A stretch of 64,000 bases of DNA from Thermocrinis minervae (GTDB lineage Bacteria; Aquificota; Aquificia; Aquificales; Aquificaceae). Position 1 is the stretch's first letter. Each line of letters opens with the position of its first letter. Location of the stretch: NCBI RefSeq assembly GCF_900142435.1, contig NZ_LT670846.1, forward strand, positions 434,001-498,000. Direction: 5' to 3'. Shown in pieces: positions 2 to 63,443 of the stretch. Under the pieces are notes generated by a model. The model saw only the letters and a program-made list of their open reading frames with translations, made no database searches and had not been told where the DNA came from. Made by a program: the position numbers and the translations under genes.

Positions 2-304
2 CTCCTCAAAGAACAGATAAGGGAGTATAAGGAGCTTTACGATTACAAGGACATCCTTAGCTACGCCGTACGAAAAGGATACGTGCACAGTCTAGGGAAC
101 TATCTGTACATAAGCGACGGATTGCTCAGGGACTATGTAAAAAGGTTAAAAGAATTAGGAGAGACCTTTAGTGTGCAGGATGCAAAAAGCGTTTTAGGGC
201 TGAGTAGAAAGTATCTTATACCCCTCCTTGAGTACCTGGATCGTACAGGAATAATAAGAAGGGAAGGAGATGTAAGGAGGTTCGTAAAAGGCTTTATGCT
301 ATAA
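2..304 (+). CDS. selB: Selenocysteine-specific elongation factor SelB, C-terminal fragment (partial)
   Basis: The frame is open to the left window edge; about 100 C-terminal residues are present, ending in a TAA at 302-304. The visible part has the winged-helix character of the SelB C-terminus: a segment SRKYLIPLLEYLDRTG followed by RREGDVRRF, which resembles the last winged helix that binds the SECIS RNA hairpin. The GTPase domain lies outside the window. If the call is right, the organism should make selenoproteins such as a formate dehydrogenase. The gene is followed after 8 bp by atpG, with which it is not functionally related. Alternative: another multi-winged-helix protein, but the terminal motif fits SelB well. 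Confidence 0.8.
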   Translation, partial: LLKEQIREYKELYDYKDILSYAVRKGYVHSLGNYLYISDGLLRDYVKRLKELGETFSVQDAKSVLGLSRKYLIPLLEYLDRTGIIRREGDVRRFVKGFML

Positions 305-305
305 T
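300..305 (+). promoter_or_regulatory. Candidate -10 box of atpG (leaderless type)
   Basis: A perfect TATAAT overlaps the selB stop codon and ends 7 nt before the atpG ATG. There is no Shine-Dalgarno directly before this ATG, so transcription would start at or next to the start codon. No good -35 box was seen 17 bp upstream. Confidence 0.5.
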
Positions 306-312
306 TGTCTAC

Positions 313-3373
<3,061 letters not shown>

Positions 3374-5509: not shown

Positions 5510-6748
5510 ATGAGAAGGGTTGTAGTCACGGGGCTTGGTGTAGTAAGCCCCATAGGTACAGGTGTTGATAAGTTTTGGAACAACCTCATAAACGGAGTGA
5601 GCGGTGTTGACAGGATAAGGCGCTTTGATCCAGAGGAGATAGGTCTCACCGTTCACATAGCTGCAGAGGTGAAGGATTTTAACCCTGAGGATTACTTTGA
5701 CAAGAAGGAAGCTCAGAAGGTATCCGATTTTATAAAGTTTGCCGTTGCAGCCTCCGAAGAAGCCATAAAGGATGCAGGCCTGCTGGATAGTTCCATAAAC
5801 CCTTACCGCGTAGGCGTCATAATAGGTACAGGCATAGGTGGACTAAGGGACATAGAAGAGCAGCAGAAGATCTTGTTGGAAAAAGGTCCTAGGAGAGTAT
5901 CTCCTTTCTTCATACCCTACGGTATATCCAACATGGCCGCGGGTTTAGTAGCCATAAGGTACGGCTTTAAGGGACCTAATTACTGCGTAGTTTCAGCCTG
6001 TGCAACGGGTAACCACTCCATAGGTGATGCCTTTAGGTTAATACAGAAGGGTGACATAGACGTGGCCATAGTAGGTGGTTGTGAAAGCGCCATAACGCCT
6101 CTTGGAGTTGCAGGTTTTGCATCCATGAGAGCCCTTTCTACTAGGAATCACGAACCTCAGAAGGCTTCGAGACCTTTTGATAGAGACAGAGACGGTTTTG
6201 TGATGGGAGAGGGTGCGGGTATCTTGGTACTTGAAGAGTACGAACACGCCAAAGCAAGGGGTGCAAAGATATACGCAGAACTTGTAGGCTATGGAGCTAC
6301 TGACGACGCCTACCATATAACAGCGCCTTGTGCGGATGGAGAAGGTGCCTATATGTGTATGAAATTAGCTTTGGAGGACGCAGGTATACCCCCACACGAG
6401 GTAGACTACATAAACGCCCACGGTACTTCAACACCTCTTAACGACAAGTCAGAAACTCTTGCCATAAAAAGGCTCTTTGGAGATCATGCCTACAAGCTTA
6501 AAATAAGCTCCAACAAGTCCATGATAGGCCACCTTTTGGGTGCTGCGGGTGCTGTGGAAGCCGTAGCAACGGTAAAAACCATACAGACGGGTATAATCCC
6601 ACCCACTATAAACCTGGAGAATCCAGATCCAGAGTGTGATCTAGACTACACTCCCAACGTAGCTCAGAAAAAGGAAGTTGTAGTGGCTATATCCAATTCC
6701 TTTGGCTTTGGTGGAACCAATGCATGCCTCGTCTTTAGAAAAATATGA
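5510..6748 (+). CDS. fabF: 3-oxoacyl-ACP synthase II
   Basis: 412 residues; elongating condensing enzyme of type II fatty acid synthesis. The Cys-His-His triad is visible: Cys164 in SACATG, His in NAHGTSTP (about 303) and His in [13 protein letters not shown] (about 340). The ATG at 5510 was preferred over the TTG at 5507 that abuts the acpP stop. The 3' end overlaps rnc by 29 bp. Confidence 0.97.
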
Positions 6749-8842: not shown

Positions 8843-8860
8843 ATATTTGATTATAGGCTC
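8843..8860. promoter_or_regulatory. 18-bp bidirectional promoter gap, gph (-) / MFS (+)
   Basis: The two start codons are 18 bp apart. On the minus strand TATAAT (8855-8850) ends 7 nt before the gph ATG. On the plus strand GATTAT (8849-8854) ends 6 nt before the MFS ATG. The two -10 boxes overlap, and neither gene has room for a Shine-Dalgarno leader. Confidence 0.5.
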
Positions 8861-10204
8861 ATGGAAAAGATAAAGACGGATTTACCATACAGGCTGGAAT
8901 CTTTAGGCTGGACGCCCTTCCATACAAAGCTCGTGCTCGTGTTGGGTATAACGTGGGTCTTTGATGCTTTTGAAGTGGTGATGGCTGGAGCTGTGGCAAA
9001 GCCCATGGCTAAAACCTTAGGCTTTGTCGATGTGCAGACCTCCTTTTTTATAACCTCCTTTTTAGTGGGTGCTTTGGTAGGTTCTCTCCTCTTTGGCTAC
9101 TTTGCAGATAGATACGGAAGGAAAAAGCTATTCCTCCTTACCCTTTTCTTGTACGCTTTGTCTACCTTCCTTACTGGCTTTGCCTGGGATTTTTACAGCG
9201 CCGTCCTTTTTAGGATCCTTGCGGGTGCTGGGCTTGGGGGAGAGTTTGCCGCCATACAGTCAGTCATAGACGAGTTCATGCCGGCAAAGCATAGGGGAAA
9301 GGTGGACGGTATAATAGCCGCTCTATGGAACTTTGGTGGGTTGTCCGCTTCCTTGACTGCTTACTTGCTCATAGACCTCTTGGGTGAGGGTATTGCCTGG
9401 CGCTTTGGTTTTTGGGTAGCAGCCCTGTTTGCTATCGTTATAGTTTACGCCAGGAGAAACCTACCAGACTCTCCGAGATGGCTCCTTTCCAGGGGAAGGA
9501 CGGAAGAGGCAGAAAGGATCGTGGAAAGCCTGGAAAAGAAGTACTGTAGGACCTCTGAGGATGCCAAAGCCTGCGAGGTTCCTGTCTTTGAAGGTGGTAT
9601 GTTTAAGGCCACGAGAGAGATTTTAACTAAATACCGATGGAGGTTTCTCTTTAGCGCATCTATCAGCTTTACCATCCTTACTACCTACTACAGCTTTATA
9701 AGCCTTATACCTACGGGGTTTGCCAAGAGGTTTGACCTGGACCCTCATAGCATAACTTTGGTCTACACGGCCATAAACGTAGCAGGGCTTGTGGGTGGGC
9801 TCTTTGTAGCCTTGCTGGTGGACTCTGTGGGCAGGAAGAGGCTTGGTCTTTTTATCTCCTTTTTCTCTCTGCTGCTTTCTCTTTTCTTCCTTTCAGGTGC
9901 TGGTTTTGTTTGGGTGCTTTCCCTCTACTCGCTCGTGGCCTTCTCCTTTCCCTCTGTGGCTTACGTGGTGGCCACAGAAATATACCCTTCTTACATAAGG
10001 GCGTACGTCATAGGCCTGTTGTCTGTGGTGGGTAGGGTCGGTGGGGCCTTTGTGCCGCCTGTGGTTACGTACTTGGCCACTAAGGATTACATTTATGGCA
10101 TCCTAGCTTTCAGTGCTCTGTGGTTTGTGGGTTTCTTGGCTTTTCTCCTCTGGAACATGTTCGGGAAGGAGACCAAGGGCAAGCCCTTGGAAGAGATAGC
10201 ATAA
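8861..10204 (+). CDS. MFS transporter, metabolite:H+ symporter type
   Basis: 447 residues with about 12 membrane segments. The MFS loop signatures are FGYFADRYGRKK (between TM2 and TM3) and its C-terminal counterpart VDSVGRKR; PDSPRWLLSRGR at the end of the N-terminal half is typical of the sugar/aromatic-acid symporter branch. WVFDAFEVVMAG resembles the D-x-(F/Y)E membrane motif of the metabolite:H+ symporter (MHS/NiaP-like) group. The substrate cannot be read from sequence. Confidence 0.85.
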   Translation: MEKIKTDLPYRLESLGWTPFHTKLVLVLGITWVFDAFEVVMAGAVAKPMAKTLGFVDVQTSFFITSFLVGALVGSLLFGYFADRYGRKKLFLLTLFLYALSTFLTGFAWDFYSAVLFRILAGAGLGGEFAAIQSVIDEFMPAKHRGKVDGIIAALWNFGGLSASLTAYLLIDLLGEGIAWRFGFWVAALFAIVIVYARRNLPDSPRWLLSRGRTEEAERIVESLEKKYCRTSEDAKACEVPVFEGGMFKATREILTKYRWRFLFSASISFTILTTYYSFISLIPTGFAKRFDLDPHSITLVYTAINVAGLVGGLFVALLVDSVGRKRLGLFISFFSLLLSLFFLSGAGFVWVLSLYSLVAFSFPSVAYVVATEIYPSYIRAYVIGLLSVVGRVGGAFVPPVVTYLATKDYIYGILAFSALWFVGFLAFLLWNMFGKETKGKPLEEIA

Positions 10205-10207
10205 AAT
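10202..10207 (+). promoter_or_regulatory. Candidate -10 box of the 10217 gene
   Basis: TAAAAT overlaps the MFS stop codon and ends 9 nt before the next ATG. No Shine-Dalgarno is present, consistent with a leaderless start. Confidence 0.35.
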
Positions 10208-18443: not shown

Positions 18444-18449
18444 TATAAT
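18444..18449 (+). promoter_or_regulatory. Candidate -10 box of the RicT-like gene
   Basis: A perfect TATAAT ends 10 nt before the ATG at 18460; no Shine-Dalgarno is present. Confidence 0.4.
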
Positions 18450-20768: not shown

Positions 20769-20817
20769 TAAGTATAAGGCTTTGTTGACAAGTCTTATGT
20801 GAGTCATTATATACTTA
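20769..20817. promoter_or_regulatory. Hemerythrin promoter with flanking inverted repeats
   Basis: TTGACA (20785-20790), 17-bp spacer and TATATA (20808-20813) form a near-consensus housekeeping promoter, followed by AAGGAGG before the ATG. The octamer TAAGTATA (20769-20776) and its complement TATACTTA (20810-20817) flank it and could be an operator; related TTATGTGAGT lies between. Confidence 0.6.
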
Positions 20818-28184: not shown

Positions 28185-28190
28185 TAAAAT
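28185..28190 (+). promoter_or_regulatory. Candidate -10 box of tyrA
   Basis: TAAAAT ends 6 nt before the ATG at 28197. No Shine-Dalgarno. The whole divergent gap is 38 bp. Confidence 0.4.
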
Positions 28191-34507: not shown

Positions 34508-35029
34508 TCAGGAGAGGACTTCTATCACAAAGCTTGAGTTAGTGTAGATGCATATCTCAGAGGCTATCTGGAGGGAGGTTTTTACTATCTCCTCCGCTGA
34601 CATACTGGTATTTCTGTACAGGGCAAGTGCACTAGCCCTAGCATAGTCACCCCCTGAACCTATGGCTAGAATGGGCTCGTCCGGCTCTATGAGGTCACCA
34701 TTACCAGACAGCAAGAACATGCTTTCCTTGTCTGCCACTAGCATAAAGGCCTCAAGCCGCCTTAGGTACCTATCAGTCCTCCAGTCCTTTGCAAGCTCTA
34801 CACACGCTCTGAGGAGATTTCCCCTAAACTCCTCCAGTTTGTTTTCTAACCTTTCCATGAGTGCAAGGCCATCGGCTGCCGAGCCTGCGAAGCCCACAAG
34901 TACTTTTCCGTTGTAAAGCCTTCTTATCTTCCTAGCCTTGTGTTTGACTACAGAGCTGCCCAGGGTGACCTGCCCGTCGGAACCCATAACCGTTATACCA
35001 TCCCTTCTCACAGCGAGTACGGTAGTCAT
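34508..35029 (-). CDS. hslV: HslV peptidase subunit (ClpQ)
   Basis: 173 residues. N-terminal TTV with Thr2 as nucleophile after Met removal, and the GSDGQVTLG segment of the family. It forms the proteolytic core of the HslUV ATP-dependent protease; hslU is not in this window. Overlaps the DUF2103 gene by 4 bp. Confidence 0.97.
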
Positions 35030-35316
35030 GAGTTGATTTTACCAAAGAGCCTTTCAAAATCCTCTTTGAACCTTCCGTCGCACACTACAAAGATCTCCTG
35101 TACAGATGTGCCGTTTTTGTACAGTATCTTGTAGCCTGTTCTGGTAGGGTACTTTAGGAATAGGCCCTTCGAACCTCTTCCTTTGTTTTGCCTCGTTATC
35201 CTACCAGGGATTATGGACTTTACAGAGTCAAGTTTAGATAGTTCTAGCAGCAGCTCTTCAAGTCCTTCCAGAAGGTGGTGTTCCACCTTTACCTTTCCAT
35301 CCCTGTGCCTACCCAT
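35026..35316 (-). CDS. DUF2103-family protein
   Basis: 96 residues, basic. The segment [15 protein letters not shown] and the following beta strands fit the small DUF2103 family, conserved in Aquificales and some other thermophiles and annotated as possible metal-binding proteins. No catalytic motif recognised. Lies between uvrC and hslV with overlaps on both sides. Confidence 0.7.
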
Positions 35317-37936: not shown

Positions 37937-37973
37937 AGGCTAATAAAATAGCCTAAACGAAAATCATTTTCAA
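37936..37973 (-). promoter_or_regulatory. fur promoter with Fur-box-like palindrome
   Basis: On the minus strand: TTGAAA (37973-37968), 17 bp, TATTTT (37950-37945), 8 nt, ATG. A perfect 6-1-6 palindrome GAAAAT-C-ATTTTC (37959-37971) overlaps the -35 and spacer, matching the core of a 7-1-7 Fur box. A second inverted repeat TAGGCTA-N6-TAGCCTA (37936-37955) spans the -10 and start codon. Confidence 0.65.
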
Positions 37974-37977
37974 CAGC

Positions 37978-47705: not shown

Positions 47706-47713
47706 ATTATAAT
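47706..47713. promoter_or_regulatory. Symmetric -10 region for speD (-) and rsmD (+)
   Basis: The palindromic core ATTATAAT gives a perfect TATAAT on both strands (plus 47708-47713, minus 47711-47706). rsmD begins 7 nt later on the plus strand with no Shine-Dalgarno; speD has a leader of about 50 nt. Confidence 0.45.
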
Positions 47714-49091: not shown

Positions 49092-49624
49092 AGCATAAGT
49101 ATTTTACAGGAATGCTCAAGGACAGATATATGACTGTAAGCATAAAAGGGGTCCCTGTCCGCCGAAAAAACACCATGACCCCTGACTACCACAATGTGGC
49201 TATCCTTGAGTGCTTCTGCTACAGCTTGAGCCAGCTCCTCGCTTCCAGGTTTGTAAGGTCCTATCACGCGTACCTCACACAGCAGGTCCATACCTTCCGA
49301 GTCTACAGGTCTTATTACGTCCACCTTTAGAGATAAGGCTACTGTATGAATAGGATGGGCATGTACTACAGCGCTCTTCTCTGTATGAAGGTACACAGCC
49401 CTATGAACCAAAAGCTCAGAAGAAGCCCTTTCCCATAGGACACCACCCTCAAAACTAACAAACACGAAGTCTTCTTCACCAAGGTTCCCCAGGTGAGAAC
49501 CCCTTCTGCTTATAAGCATTCCGTTGCATACCTTGACTGATAGATTTCCAGCCCTCGCGTCCACAAGCCCTTCTTGGAACATTAACCTTCCTACATGTAT
49601 AAGCTTTCTCAAATGGTACCTCAT
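49088..49624 (-). CDS. Class II aldolase/adducin-family protein
   Basis: 178 residues. Zinc-site motif HAHPIH (about 89-94) and C-terminal RGHGVF with a third His; GNLSVKV and SRRGSHLG bind the phosphate. Relatives are fuculose-1-phosphate aldolase, ribulose-5-phosphate 4-epimerase and MtnB dehydratase. The substrate is open; methionine salvage would fit with SpeD but is only a guess. Coupled to uvrD (ATGA). Confidence 0.82.
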   Translation of the reverse strand: MRYHLRKLIHVGRLMFQEGLVDARAGNLSVKVCNGMLISRRGSHLGNLGEEDFVFVSFEGGVLWERASSELLVHRAVYLHTEKSAVVHAHPIHTVALSLKVDVIRPVDSEGMDLLCEVRVIGPYKPGSEELAQAVAEALKDSHIVVVRGHGVFSADRDPFYAYSHISVLEHSCKILML

Positions 49625-51588: not shown

Positions 51589-51611
51589 GCATATAGTTTA
51601 AAATAACCTAA
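51589..51611. promoter_or_regulatory. 23-bp bidirectional promoter gap, uvrD (-) / pgpA (+)
   Basis: Plus strand: TAAAAT (51599-51604), 7 nt, GTG of pgpA. Minus strand: TATTTT (51605-51600) or TTAAAC (51601-51596), 11 or 7 nt, ATG of uvrD. No Shine-Dalgarno for either gene. Confidence 0.4.
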
Positions 51612-52043
51612 GTGTTCAAGGAGCTTATAGCTACAGGTTTTGGTATAGGAAAACTTGGGTATGCACCTGGTACCCTTGGTACCCTCTTGGGCACCCCTTT
51701 AGCGTACTTATTTGGCTACAAGACATACCTTCTACTGGTGTTTATAGTACTCTTTTACCCCATAGCCTACACGAGCGTTCAGGATATGCTAAATAGAACA
51801 AGAGAAAAGGACCCCGAAGAGGTAGTAGTGGACGAAATCTTAGGATATTTAGCCTGTTTTACCTTCGTTGAACCGTCTTTGAGGAGCATGGTTTTAGCCT
51901 TTGTCCTTTTTAGGATCTTTGACGTGCTAAAGCCCTTCCCTATAAACCTCTTTGAAAGGTTTCCCGGAGCTCATGGGGTCATAGCAGATGATCTTGCAGC
52001 TGGTTTTTTGGTATCAGGTCTCCTTTTCTTTCTGATCCAATAG
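51612..52043 (+). CDS. pgpA: Phosphatidylglycerophosphatase A
   Basis: 143 residues with four hydrophobic segments. Family signatures GFGIGKLGYAPGTLGTLLG (9-27) and VVVDEILGY, RIFDVLKPFPI, GVIADDLAAG. Dephosphorylates PGP to phosphatidylglycerol. Convergent with the YihY gene (30-bp overlap). Confidence 0.95.
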   Translation: MFKELIATGFGIGKLGYAPGTLGTLLGTPLAYLFGYKTYLLLVFIVLFYPIAYTSVQDMLNRTREKDPEEVVVDEILGYLACFTFVEPSLRSMVLAFVLFRIFDVLKPFPINLFERFPGAHGVIADDLAAGFLVSGLLFFLIQ

Positions 52044-52742: not shown

Positions 52743-53638
52743 GTTTTTGTCTCTACCTTACGCACTATGAGGTACACAAGGCCAAGGGCCAGTACAACAA
52801 AACCTAAAGTAATCAGCTCGTACACCTTTTCGGGAGTTAAAGACACTATAAGGATCTTCCTTATTATGGCCGCGAGGGCAACTCCCACAAAGACGCTTAT
52901 GCTTATACTTCCTCCCCTTATGTGTTTTATCTCCTCGTACAGGAGCTCCGATACGGCGTACAGTACAAGCAGAGAGCCTAGTATACTTATGCCAAGCTTT
53001 TCCAAAGTGTACGTTCCTGAAAAAGCAAGAAGGATCTCATAGACCACCCAGTATATCAAGAACATACCTACAACTGTAAGGCTGAGCACTATGAAGGCAT
53101 CAAAGAACCAGGAGATCCTCCTCAAGGTCTCTATGACTACCCTGGTGTACTTTCCGCTACCCAAGTAAAGTTTTAGTTCCTCTTCCCTGAAGGAGCTTAC
53201 CATCACGTCTAGGTTTAAGTCCAAGGCTTTGTTTACGGACGAGAGTATCCTGTCCCTTTCTTCCGAACACCCATATAGCTCGGTAAGCTTTTTGCCTATA
53301 TACTCCCTGACAAAGTTCATAGAAGCGTTGACGTAATGGGGAGGCAACCCTATCTTCACGTGGGTTTCTCCTATACGGTAGAGCCTTCTAAGGTAGCTCG
53401 CATCGTACCTTGAACTAAAGAGGCTTATAAACCAGTCTTTTACCTTTTCCCTGTGTCTCTTTCTCACTTCCTGGCTGGGAAGGTATTTGCTGGTGTCTGG
53501 GAAGTTTTCCAAGTACCTGTAGAACTCATCCATAAACTCTTCAGCATGCTCTTCAAAGTACTTAGAGACCTTCCTTAGGTTTTCTTCATCTTCGGCCGTC
53601 CACCTGTAGTGAACCTTCAGTTCCTCTATGGACTCCAC
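52739..53638 (-). CDS. Globin-coupled (protoglobin) sensor fused to a PsiE-like membrane domain
   Basis: 299 residues from the GTG at 53638. The N-terminal ~170 residues form a sensor globin: HREKVKDWFISLF and YRIGETHVKIGLPPHY, whose His (about residue 93) is the proximal haem ligand in protoglobin/globin-coupled sensors. Four membrane helices (about 185-295), with EEIKHIRGGSISISVFVGVA, match the PsiE (phosphate-starvation-inducible E) family. So a gas-sensing domain is attached to a membrane domain of unknown function. An open GTG at 53704 would overlap the divergent gene and is less likely. Confidence 0.82.
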   Translation of the reverse strand: MESIEELKVHYRWTAEDEENLRKVSKYFEEHAEEFMDEFYRYLENFPDTSKYLPSQEVRKRHREKVKDWFISLFSSRYDASYLRRLYRIGETHVKIGLPPHYVNASMNFVREYIGKKLTELYGCSEERDRILSSVNKALDLNLDVMVSSFREEELKLYLGSGKYTRVVIETLRRISWFFDAFIVLSLTVVGMFLIYWVVYEILLAFSGTYTLEKLGISILGSLLVLYAVSELLYEEIKHIRGGSISISVFVGVALAAIIRKILIVSLTPEKVYELITLGFVVLALGLVYLIVRKVETKT

Positions 53639-53658
53639 GGAGTAAAATGATAACTCTG
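53639..53658. promoter_or_regulatory. 20-bp bidirectional promoter gap, globin-PsiE (-) / acyltransferase (+)
   Basis: Plus strand: TAAAAT (53643-53648), 10 nt, ATG. Minus strand: TATCAT (53652-53647), 8 nt, GTG. The -10 boxes overlap by 2 bp. No Shine-Dalgarno for either. Confidence 0.4.
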
Positions 53659-55405: not shown

Positions 55406-55890
55406 CAGATTTCACAGTGTCCGCAAAGTTCTAGGAAGTTGTTTATCTGTTGTCTTGTACCTACAACAATGAGAAGATCACCTTCTTTTATTATTTCCTT
55501 GTAAGGATCTGGTGTAGGTATGAACTGGTCATCTCTTGATATGGCTATCACAGAAGCTCCTGTTTTGCTTCTTATCTGAAGCTCAGCGATTGTCTTCCCC
55601 ACGAGATTAGAGTTTTTACCTACTCTTATCCACTCCATGACCATCTGTTTGAGGATCATTTCCATTCTTTCAGTTCTTACAGGTTCGTAAAGGGCACCTG
55701 CTATCAAAAAACCAAGCTCCTTAGCTTCTTCGTCTGTAAGTTCAAAAAAGCATAAAGGTTCCTCTTCCTCCATGATGAACAGCTCTCTCTTGCCCGTATG
55801 GTATATAACTAACACTAAGGATCTTTTGTTTTTTAACTCTATACTGTACTTTTTACCTACTCCAGGTAGATCTGTTTCTTTTATCTTCAT
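55405..55890 (-). CDS. TrkA-C-domain antiporter regulator (KhtT-like)
   Basis: 161 residues. N-terminal [15 protein letters not shown] is typical of KhtT; the C-terminal half (about 80-160, LVGKTIAELQIRSKTGASVIAI) is a TrkA-C (RCK-C) domain that binds nucleotides or ions. It gates the downstream antiporter. Its start overlaps hspR by 38 bp. Confidence 0.88.
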   Translation of the reverse strand: MKIKETDLPGVGKKYSIELKNKRSLVLVIYHTGKRELFIMEEEEPLCFFELTDEEAKELGFLIAGALYEPVRTERMEMILKQMVMEWIRVGKNSNLVGKTIAELQIRSKTGASVIAISRDDQFIPTPDPYKEIIKEGDLLIVVGTRQQINNFLELCGHCEI

Positions 55891-56266
55891 ACTCCTTAAT
55901 TATATCCCATAACTTTGCCACCTTTTTAACTTCAAGGACGGCAAGGGACTTTTCATCCTCTTTCCCCTTCTTTAGCTCTTCCTTTATGAAGGTCAAAAGC
56001 TTTTCTATCTGACTTTCTAGTTCTTCTATTTGTTCCTTCATGCGCAGTATTATGTCAACACCTGCAAGATTAACTCCAAACTCCCTCGTAAGGGTCACTA
56101 TTATCTCAATCCTCTTTATGTCTTCTTCCGTGTACCTTCTGGTACCTCCTGCCGTCCTTTGAGGTTTTATGAGTCCTTCCCTTTCGTAAAGCCTTAGAGT
56201 TTGTGGATGTATGTTAAACATCTCAGCCACGCTTCCTATGGTGAAGTAGACCTTTTTCTTCTTCAT
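55853..56266 (-). CDS. hspR: HspR-like MerR-family heat-shock regulator
   Basis: 137 residues. MerR-type winged helix: [51 protein letters not shown]. The C-terminal helix [17 protein letters not shown] forms a coiled coil. HspR represses dnaK/dnaJ heat-shock operons in several phyla by binding HAIR repeats. Coupled to dnaJ by a 4-bp overlap. No CTTGAGT-N7-ACTCAAG HAIR motif was found in the dnaJ promoter. Confidence 0.9.
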
Positions 56267-57401: not shown

Positions 57402-57430
57402 ATGATAAAACTTTAGTATAGTTTTGTCAA
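57402..57430 (-). promoter_or_regulatory. dnaJ promoter (leaderless type)
   Basis: Minus strand: perfect TTGACA (57430-57425), 17 bp, TATCAT (57407-57402), then 8 nt to the ATG. The best -35/-10 pair among the short-leader promoters of the window. Confidence 0.7.
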
Positions 57431-59531: not shown

Positions 59532-59536
59532 ATTCC

Positions 59537-59570
59537 TAAGCCCCCTTCTGGGGGCTTATACTATCTTTTT
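59537..59570 (+). terminator. groEL terminator overlapping the recN -10 region
   Basis: Perfect 9-bp stem TAAGCCCCC / GGGGGCTTA with TTCT loop (59537-59558), then a T-rich tail ending TTTTT just before the recN ATG. TATACT (59557-59562), the end of the stem and tail, ends 8 nt before that ATG and may be the recN -10 box. Confidence 0.75.
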
Positions 59571-63437: not shown

Positions 63438-63443
63438 ATTTTA
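63438..63443 (-). promoter_or_regulatory. Candidate -10 box of the exonuclease gene
   Basis: TAAAAT on the minus strand, at the 3' end of the preceding gene, 8 nt before the ATG at 63429. Confidence 0.3.

Follow-up and report, generated by a model that had tools for sequence, protein, structure and literature searches.

A TATAAT box stands directly before the start codon of atpG, where positions 300-315 of the stretch of DNA analyzed here read TATAAT-TGTCTAC-ATG, and this arrangement raises the question of whether the messages of such genes begin at their start codons and, if so, how widely such genes occur. The stretch, hereafter the window, comprises 64,000 nucleotides (bases 434001-498000 of the single-contig, 1,367,821 bp genome of Thermocrinis minervae). 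The atpG box shares bases with the stop codon (302-304) that ends the reading frame before it, and the TG of an extended -10 element lies at 297-298. Throughout, d is the gap, in bases, that separates the 3' end of the -10 hexamer from the start codon; a strict box has at most one mismatch to TATAAT, a looser box is TANNNT, and a first gene is either a divergent gene or one lying more than 60 bp behind its same-strand neighbor. Gene calling relied on a simple codon-score method blind to the sequence upstream of the start.

The preliminary description had named thirteen genes of the window as preceded by such a box. Eleven of these stand and two are weak: nth has TATAGG, without the final T, together with a weak GGTG, and for the sulfur-carrier (ThiS) gene a TAAATT upstream of an alternative start is all that is seen. 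Box-led genes beyond that list are those for the PP2C phosphatase, HslV, the GcvH-like protein, UvrD and the protoglobin (Table 1). The 10217 gene gave no Pfam hit. The hslV box sits within the end of the upstream gene (35026-35041 region). Short same-strand gaps need not denote operons in Aquificaceae; hslV and the 10217 gene, which look operon-internal, each have a box of their own, inside the preceding gene or immediately after it. The dnaJ box is accompanied by a -35 element, TTGACA, at 57425-57430, and both elements also occur in the ortholog in genome G053; the fur ortholog in G037 has TATATT at d = 7.

Table 1. Predicted -10 boxes close to start codons, and associated features, in the window.
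Feature	Box	Position	Strand	d	Start codon and remarks
atpG -10 box	TATAAT	300..305	+	7	ATG at 313; no Shine-Dalgarno sequence
atpG, predicted leaderless		313..1182	+		box kept in 32/32 loci
gph/HAD gene	TATAAT	8850..8855	-	7	8842
10217 gene	TAAAAT	10202..10207	+	9	
PSP1/RicT-like gene	TATAAT	18444..18449	+	10	18460
PP2C phosphatase gene	TATACT	20771..20776	-	10	20760
tyrA	TAAAAT	28185..28190	+	6	28197
hslV	TAAAAT	35036..35041	-	6	35029
fur	TATTTT	37945..37950	-	8	37936
rsmD-like gene	TATAAT	47708..47713	+	7	47721
gcvH-like gene	TAAAAT	49101..49106	-	9	49091
uvrD/pgpA divergent interval, 23 bp		51589..51611	both		overlapping boxes
uvrD	TAAACT	51595..51600	-	6	51588
pgpA	TAAAAT	51599..51604	+	7	GTG at 51612
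protoglobin/PsiE-domain gene	TATCAT	53647..53652	-	8	GTG at 53638
dnaJ	TATCAT	57402..57407	-	8	57393
recN	TATACT	59557..59562	+	8	59571
exonuclease gene	TAAAAT	63438..63443	-	8	63429

Boxes at this distance had been reported by eye, and statistics over 464 kb (the window and a further 400 kb of sampled stretches, together about one third of the genome) place them well above background. A strict box at d = 5-11 precedes 47 of 168 first genes, compared with 7.3 ± 2.6 in shuffled sequence (maximum 15 in 200 shuffles) and with 6-17 when the search window is slid to other positions. The looser TANNNT box precedes 65 of the 168, compared with 33 ± 5 in shuffles. Distances from box to start range from 6 to 11 and peak at d = 6-9, far above the shuffles. 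The accompanying claim that box-led genes lack a Shine-Dalgarno (SD) sequence was likewise borne out: when boxes with up to two mismatches are counted, an SD occurs in 1 of 61 box-bearing genes versus 39 of the 107 other first genes. About half of the first genes have neither box nor SD, in part through starts wrongly called by the simple coding-score caller.

We then characterized the box across the family to which Thermocrinis minervae belongs (f1), which includes Aquifex and is taken here as Aquificaceae, the Aquifex records L022 and L023 showing the same atpG match as its genomes G007 and G002. In the zone before the start, TATAAT ranks first among non-SD hexamers across 622 first genes from f1 (60 versus 7.1 expected), followed by TAAAAT (44 versus 4.3); other orders of the letters of TATAAT are clearly less enriched. 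An SD is found in 3 of 163 box-led and 160 of 459 other first genes (p = 3e-21). First genes that do have an SD carry a box farther out, at d = 14-60, in 48% of cases versus 21% in shuffles, with a peak at d = 20-40; a second upstream box occurs in 25% of box-led genes versus 34% in shuffles. The promoters of box-led genes favor an extended -10 element and have almost no -35: among 257 box-led genes, 55 have TG ahead of the box, versus 12.9 at other offsets (about four times background), a -35 logo in fixed register is flat, and with flexible spacing -35 elements matching at least five of six positions number 19 versus 11 ± 2.7, a slight excess. The base immediately before the start codon is a pyrimidine in 211 of 264 box-led genes (80%), and in 94% of those at d = 6, the commonest spacing, versus 219 of 426 SD-led genes (51%); before non-start ATGs that follow a box by chance the figure is 57%. 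This excess of C or T at -1 would be expected if a pyrimidine-purine initiator coincided with the start codon. The 264 box-led genes start with ATG (243), GTG (20) or TTG (1), and the difference in TTG from SD-led genes (6 of 426) is weak.

The box is also conserved between genomes. All 32 readable atpG loci of the family have it at d = 6-11, in 31 of them as exactly TATAAT; a TRTGN extension precedes it, the upstream sequences have otherwise diverged, and no -35 element shared across the 32 loci was found. At the single atpG locus from the neighboring family f3, AGGAGG stands in place of the box. Among 239 ortholog pairs with matching starts, drawn from the sampled stretches only, both members are box-led in 32, compared with 14.9 (maximum 24) after permutation.

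How far the signal extends was assessed from 200 kb sampled in each of several genomes per family, with Thermocrinis minervae as the sole member of its genus. A box at d = 5-10 leads 27% of its first genes, and 28% in G001, 21% in G037, 19% in G053, 25% in G009, 26% in G029 and 36% in G030; all seven Aquificaceae genomes sampled give z scores of 8-17, and the six other than Thermocrinis minervae, at 19-36%, give 8-11. In f3, the family whose proteins are closest to those of f1 (median identity 56%, versus 48% for f2), 12% of first genes are box-led, a weak excess (z = 4.6). There is no excess in f2, which we take to be a Hydrogenothermaceae-like family (2 of 73 and 2 of 73 first genes, 2.7% each), in f5, presumably a Desulfurobacteriaceae-like family (5 of 81 and 3 of 83, or 6.2% and 3.6%), or in f4 (0 of 25), and a box precedes 1.7% of 407 first genes from mixed other phyla. 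The atpG identity of a Desulfurobacteriaceae record (L065), 38%, is in line with f5. When box-led f1 genes are paired with their f2 and f5 orthologs (37 pairs), 27 of these orthologs are SD-led and none is box-led. What is new here is that the predicted leaderless signal is specific to Aquificaceae, weak in f3 and absent from f2 and f5; the simplest reading of this distribution would be one gain of leaderless genes on the stem of f1 and f3.

An explanation of the family difference by a missing ribosomal protein, S1 or S21, was considered and rejected, as both proteins are kept across families: S1 (TIGR00717) is present in f1, throughout that family, and in f2, and S21 (PF01165) occurs in most genomes of all families. 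S1 is full length in f1, f2 and f3. In f5 (G114-G135) the S1 matches end near profile position 340 of 516, indicating a shorter protein.

Divergent gene pairs offer a view of the start sites that is separate from the single-gene statistics. Of 177 divergent pairs in f1, 13 have 16-18 bp between their start codons, whereas the remaining bins in the 10-40 range predict 2.9 (Poisson 1e-5); the 16-18 bp bins were picked post hoc, although 18 bp is the published optimum. No two of the 13 pairs show homology by blastp. In 11 of them a TANNNT box lies 4-11 nt from each start, as in the intervals CAT-GCTATAATTATAACATT-ATG and CAT-AAAGTAAAATTATAAAC-ATG; the two exceptions, which do not have both boxes, are a pair in L020 and the window pair formed by the gph/HAD start (8842) and the divergent MFS start (8861), 18 bp lying between them. 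A strict form of the unit, CATNNNNTAWAATNWTANNATG, has 45 matches in 64 family genomes (about 18 distinct loci by eye, with matches between any flanking genes included). By contrast, its reversed form has no match in the same 64 genomes, a wrong-spacing control has three, and CATNNNNTAWAATNWTANNATG itself has one match in 41 genomes of f2, a family that is AT-richer in the two genomes sampled. Divergent start codons, the predicted transcription starts, thus show a sharp excess at 17-19 bp apart, and this spacing provides independent support for transcription starting at start codons.

Divergent intervals of 16-23 bp made almost entirely of overlapping -10 boxes are read as candidate bidirectional leaderless promoters. 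Such pairs were noted in the window at 51589-51611 and 8843-8860, and elsewhere at L203:12911-12929, L019:4166-4184, L007:18188-18205, L197:14660-14677, and L167:2298-2315 and 5704-5721. Aquificaceae would probably share a minimal two-way unit of this kind, in which 16-18 bp of overlapping -10 boxes (core TAWAATNWTA) direct two back-to-back leaderless mRNAs. Such a unit would lack both a leader and an SD and could fit a -35 element only inside the coding regions; it would be kept across the family and be almost missing from the sister family. The E. coli bidirectional promoters of Warman et al. 2021, as described in PMC12825309, are similar: 18 bp is the most frequent distance between their divergent starts, distances of 10 and 23 are common as well, the optimal distance from box to start is 7 bp, and their -10 elements overlap pseudo-symmetrically. 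Unlike in those promoters, both Aquificaceae transcripts would begin at the start codon, so that the distance between codons equals the 17-19 bp spacing. In the titles and abstracts of the papers found to mention both leaderless genes and bidirectional promoters, there is no report of the two as one bacterial unit.

Together, these results make it very probable that transcription in Thermocrinis minervae is leaderless at genes across the genome. The housekeeping sigma factor would recognize a TATAAT-like -10 element, often TG-extended and usually without a recognizable -35, and transcription would start at the start codon or within about 0-4 nt of it, leaving too little mRNA upstream for any SD. 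We infer both these start sites and the route of translation that would follow, in which the ribosome, in known systems mainly the 70S particle (review PMC9031893), binds the 5'-terminal AUG or GUG directly. If transcription starts 7 nt after the box, the observed spacing of 6-11 nt would give some mRNAs a leader of 1-4 nt. Other genes would have a leader, with the box 20-40 nt upstream and a strong SD.

The same boxes could instead be secondary promoters that do yield a leaderless transcript, the main translated mRNA beginning further upstream. Boxes at d = 5-10 do precede 19 of 141 operon-internal-looking genes, and read-through messages are possible for some of them, but the box-led first genes lack an SD and a second upstream box, which would leave a longer message without a known signal for initiation; we consider this account unlikely. 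Another reading holds that the AT-rich element serves translation within a longer leader, for instance by binding protein S1 or lowering structure, with the true promoter further upstream. S1 is present throughout f1, and Nakagawa et al. 2017 (PMC5397173) suggested such a role for the A/U bias near -10. However, what is enriched is an ordered hexamer and not AT content, it comes with the TG extension and the pyrimidine at -1, second upstream boxes are less frequent than in shuffles, boxes lie within upstream genes and overlap in divergent intervals of 16-18 bp, and S1 is equally present in f2, where boxes are lacking, all of which makes a translation signal very improbable.

That chance or composition produced the pattern, AT-rich intergenic DNA yielding TANNNT everywhere and close instances being picked, has almost no likelihood. 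The loose motif is common, as the shuffles confirm, but it is observed about twice as often as they predict, the strict box exceeds them further and peaks at specific positions, and the AT-richer genomes of the sister families f2 and f5 have no excess. Leaderless transcription remains the best-supported reading.

The preliminary description had proposed this mechanism, which has strong support from the sequence statistics, the conservation and the promoter geometry, and had known of no account of it as a general feature of the group, a view that the literature does not support. Zheng et al. 2011 (PMC3160421) predicted leaderless genes in two of five Aquificae genomes, at 20.7-32.4%, with Aquifex aeolicus VF5 shown in their Figures 1C and 2; as here, a TAtaaT whose first T lies about 12 nt ahead of the start was read as leaderless. 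The Thermocrinis analysis goes beyond that work in its genus, the family-level range, the extended -10, the -1 pyrimidine, the conservation between orthologs and the divergent 16-18 bp units. Nakagawa et al. 2017 described the U/A bias near -10 for non-SD genes in Aquificae. The text of the A. aeolicus dRNA-seq paper (PMC4227106) gives no leader lengths, and the literature searched contained no published mapped start sites for Aquifex or Hydrogenobacter. Mycobacteria resemble Thermocrinis in that about one quarter of transcripts are leaderless, with an ATG or GTG start and no SD (Shell et al. 2015, PMC4633059); there the evidence comes from start-site mapping, ribosome profiling and reporters, whereas the Thermocrinis case is predicted from sequence. 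Deinococcus-Thermus, too, is an extremophile lineage with a high share of such genes and TANNNT near the start (Zheng et al. 2011; PMC9031893), but the Thermus and Deinobacterium controls yielded no S21, a protein kept in Aquificaceae.

These observations would place a second way of starting translation within Aquificota, present in Aquificaceae, weak in a neighboring family and absent from two others. With orthologs mostly SD-led in the families without boxes, whether leaderless initiation was gained or lost, and what it needs of a ribosome at high temperature, could be tested on close relatives. Annotation of start codons, operon limits and -35-less promoters is affected, and the 16-18 bp divergent units, if real, would be very small two-gene promoters.

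Several individual sites in the window carry additional features. Just upstream of the fur -10 box (37937-37975, minus strand) is a palindrome resembling a Fur box, GAAAATGATTTTC, which suggests autoregulation. The recN box directly follows a GC-rich, terminator-like hairpin downstream of groEL (59535-59570), a putative terminator and a promoter being superposed there. Finally, the gene starting at 55890 (55884-55905, minus strand) combines a TATAAT at d = 8 with a TAAGGAG that overlaps it, two signals that rarely occur together.
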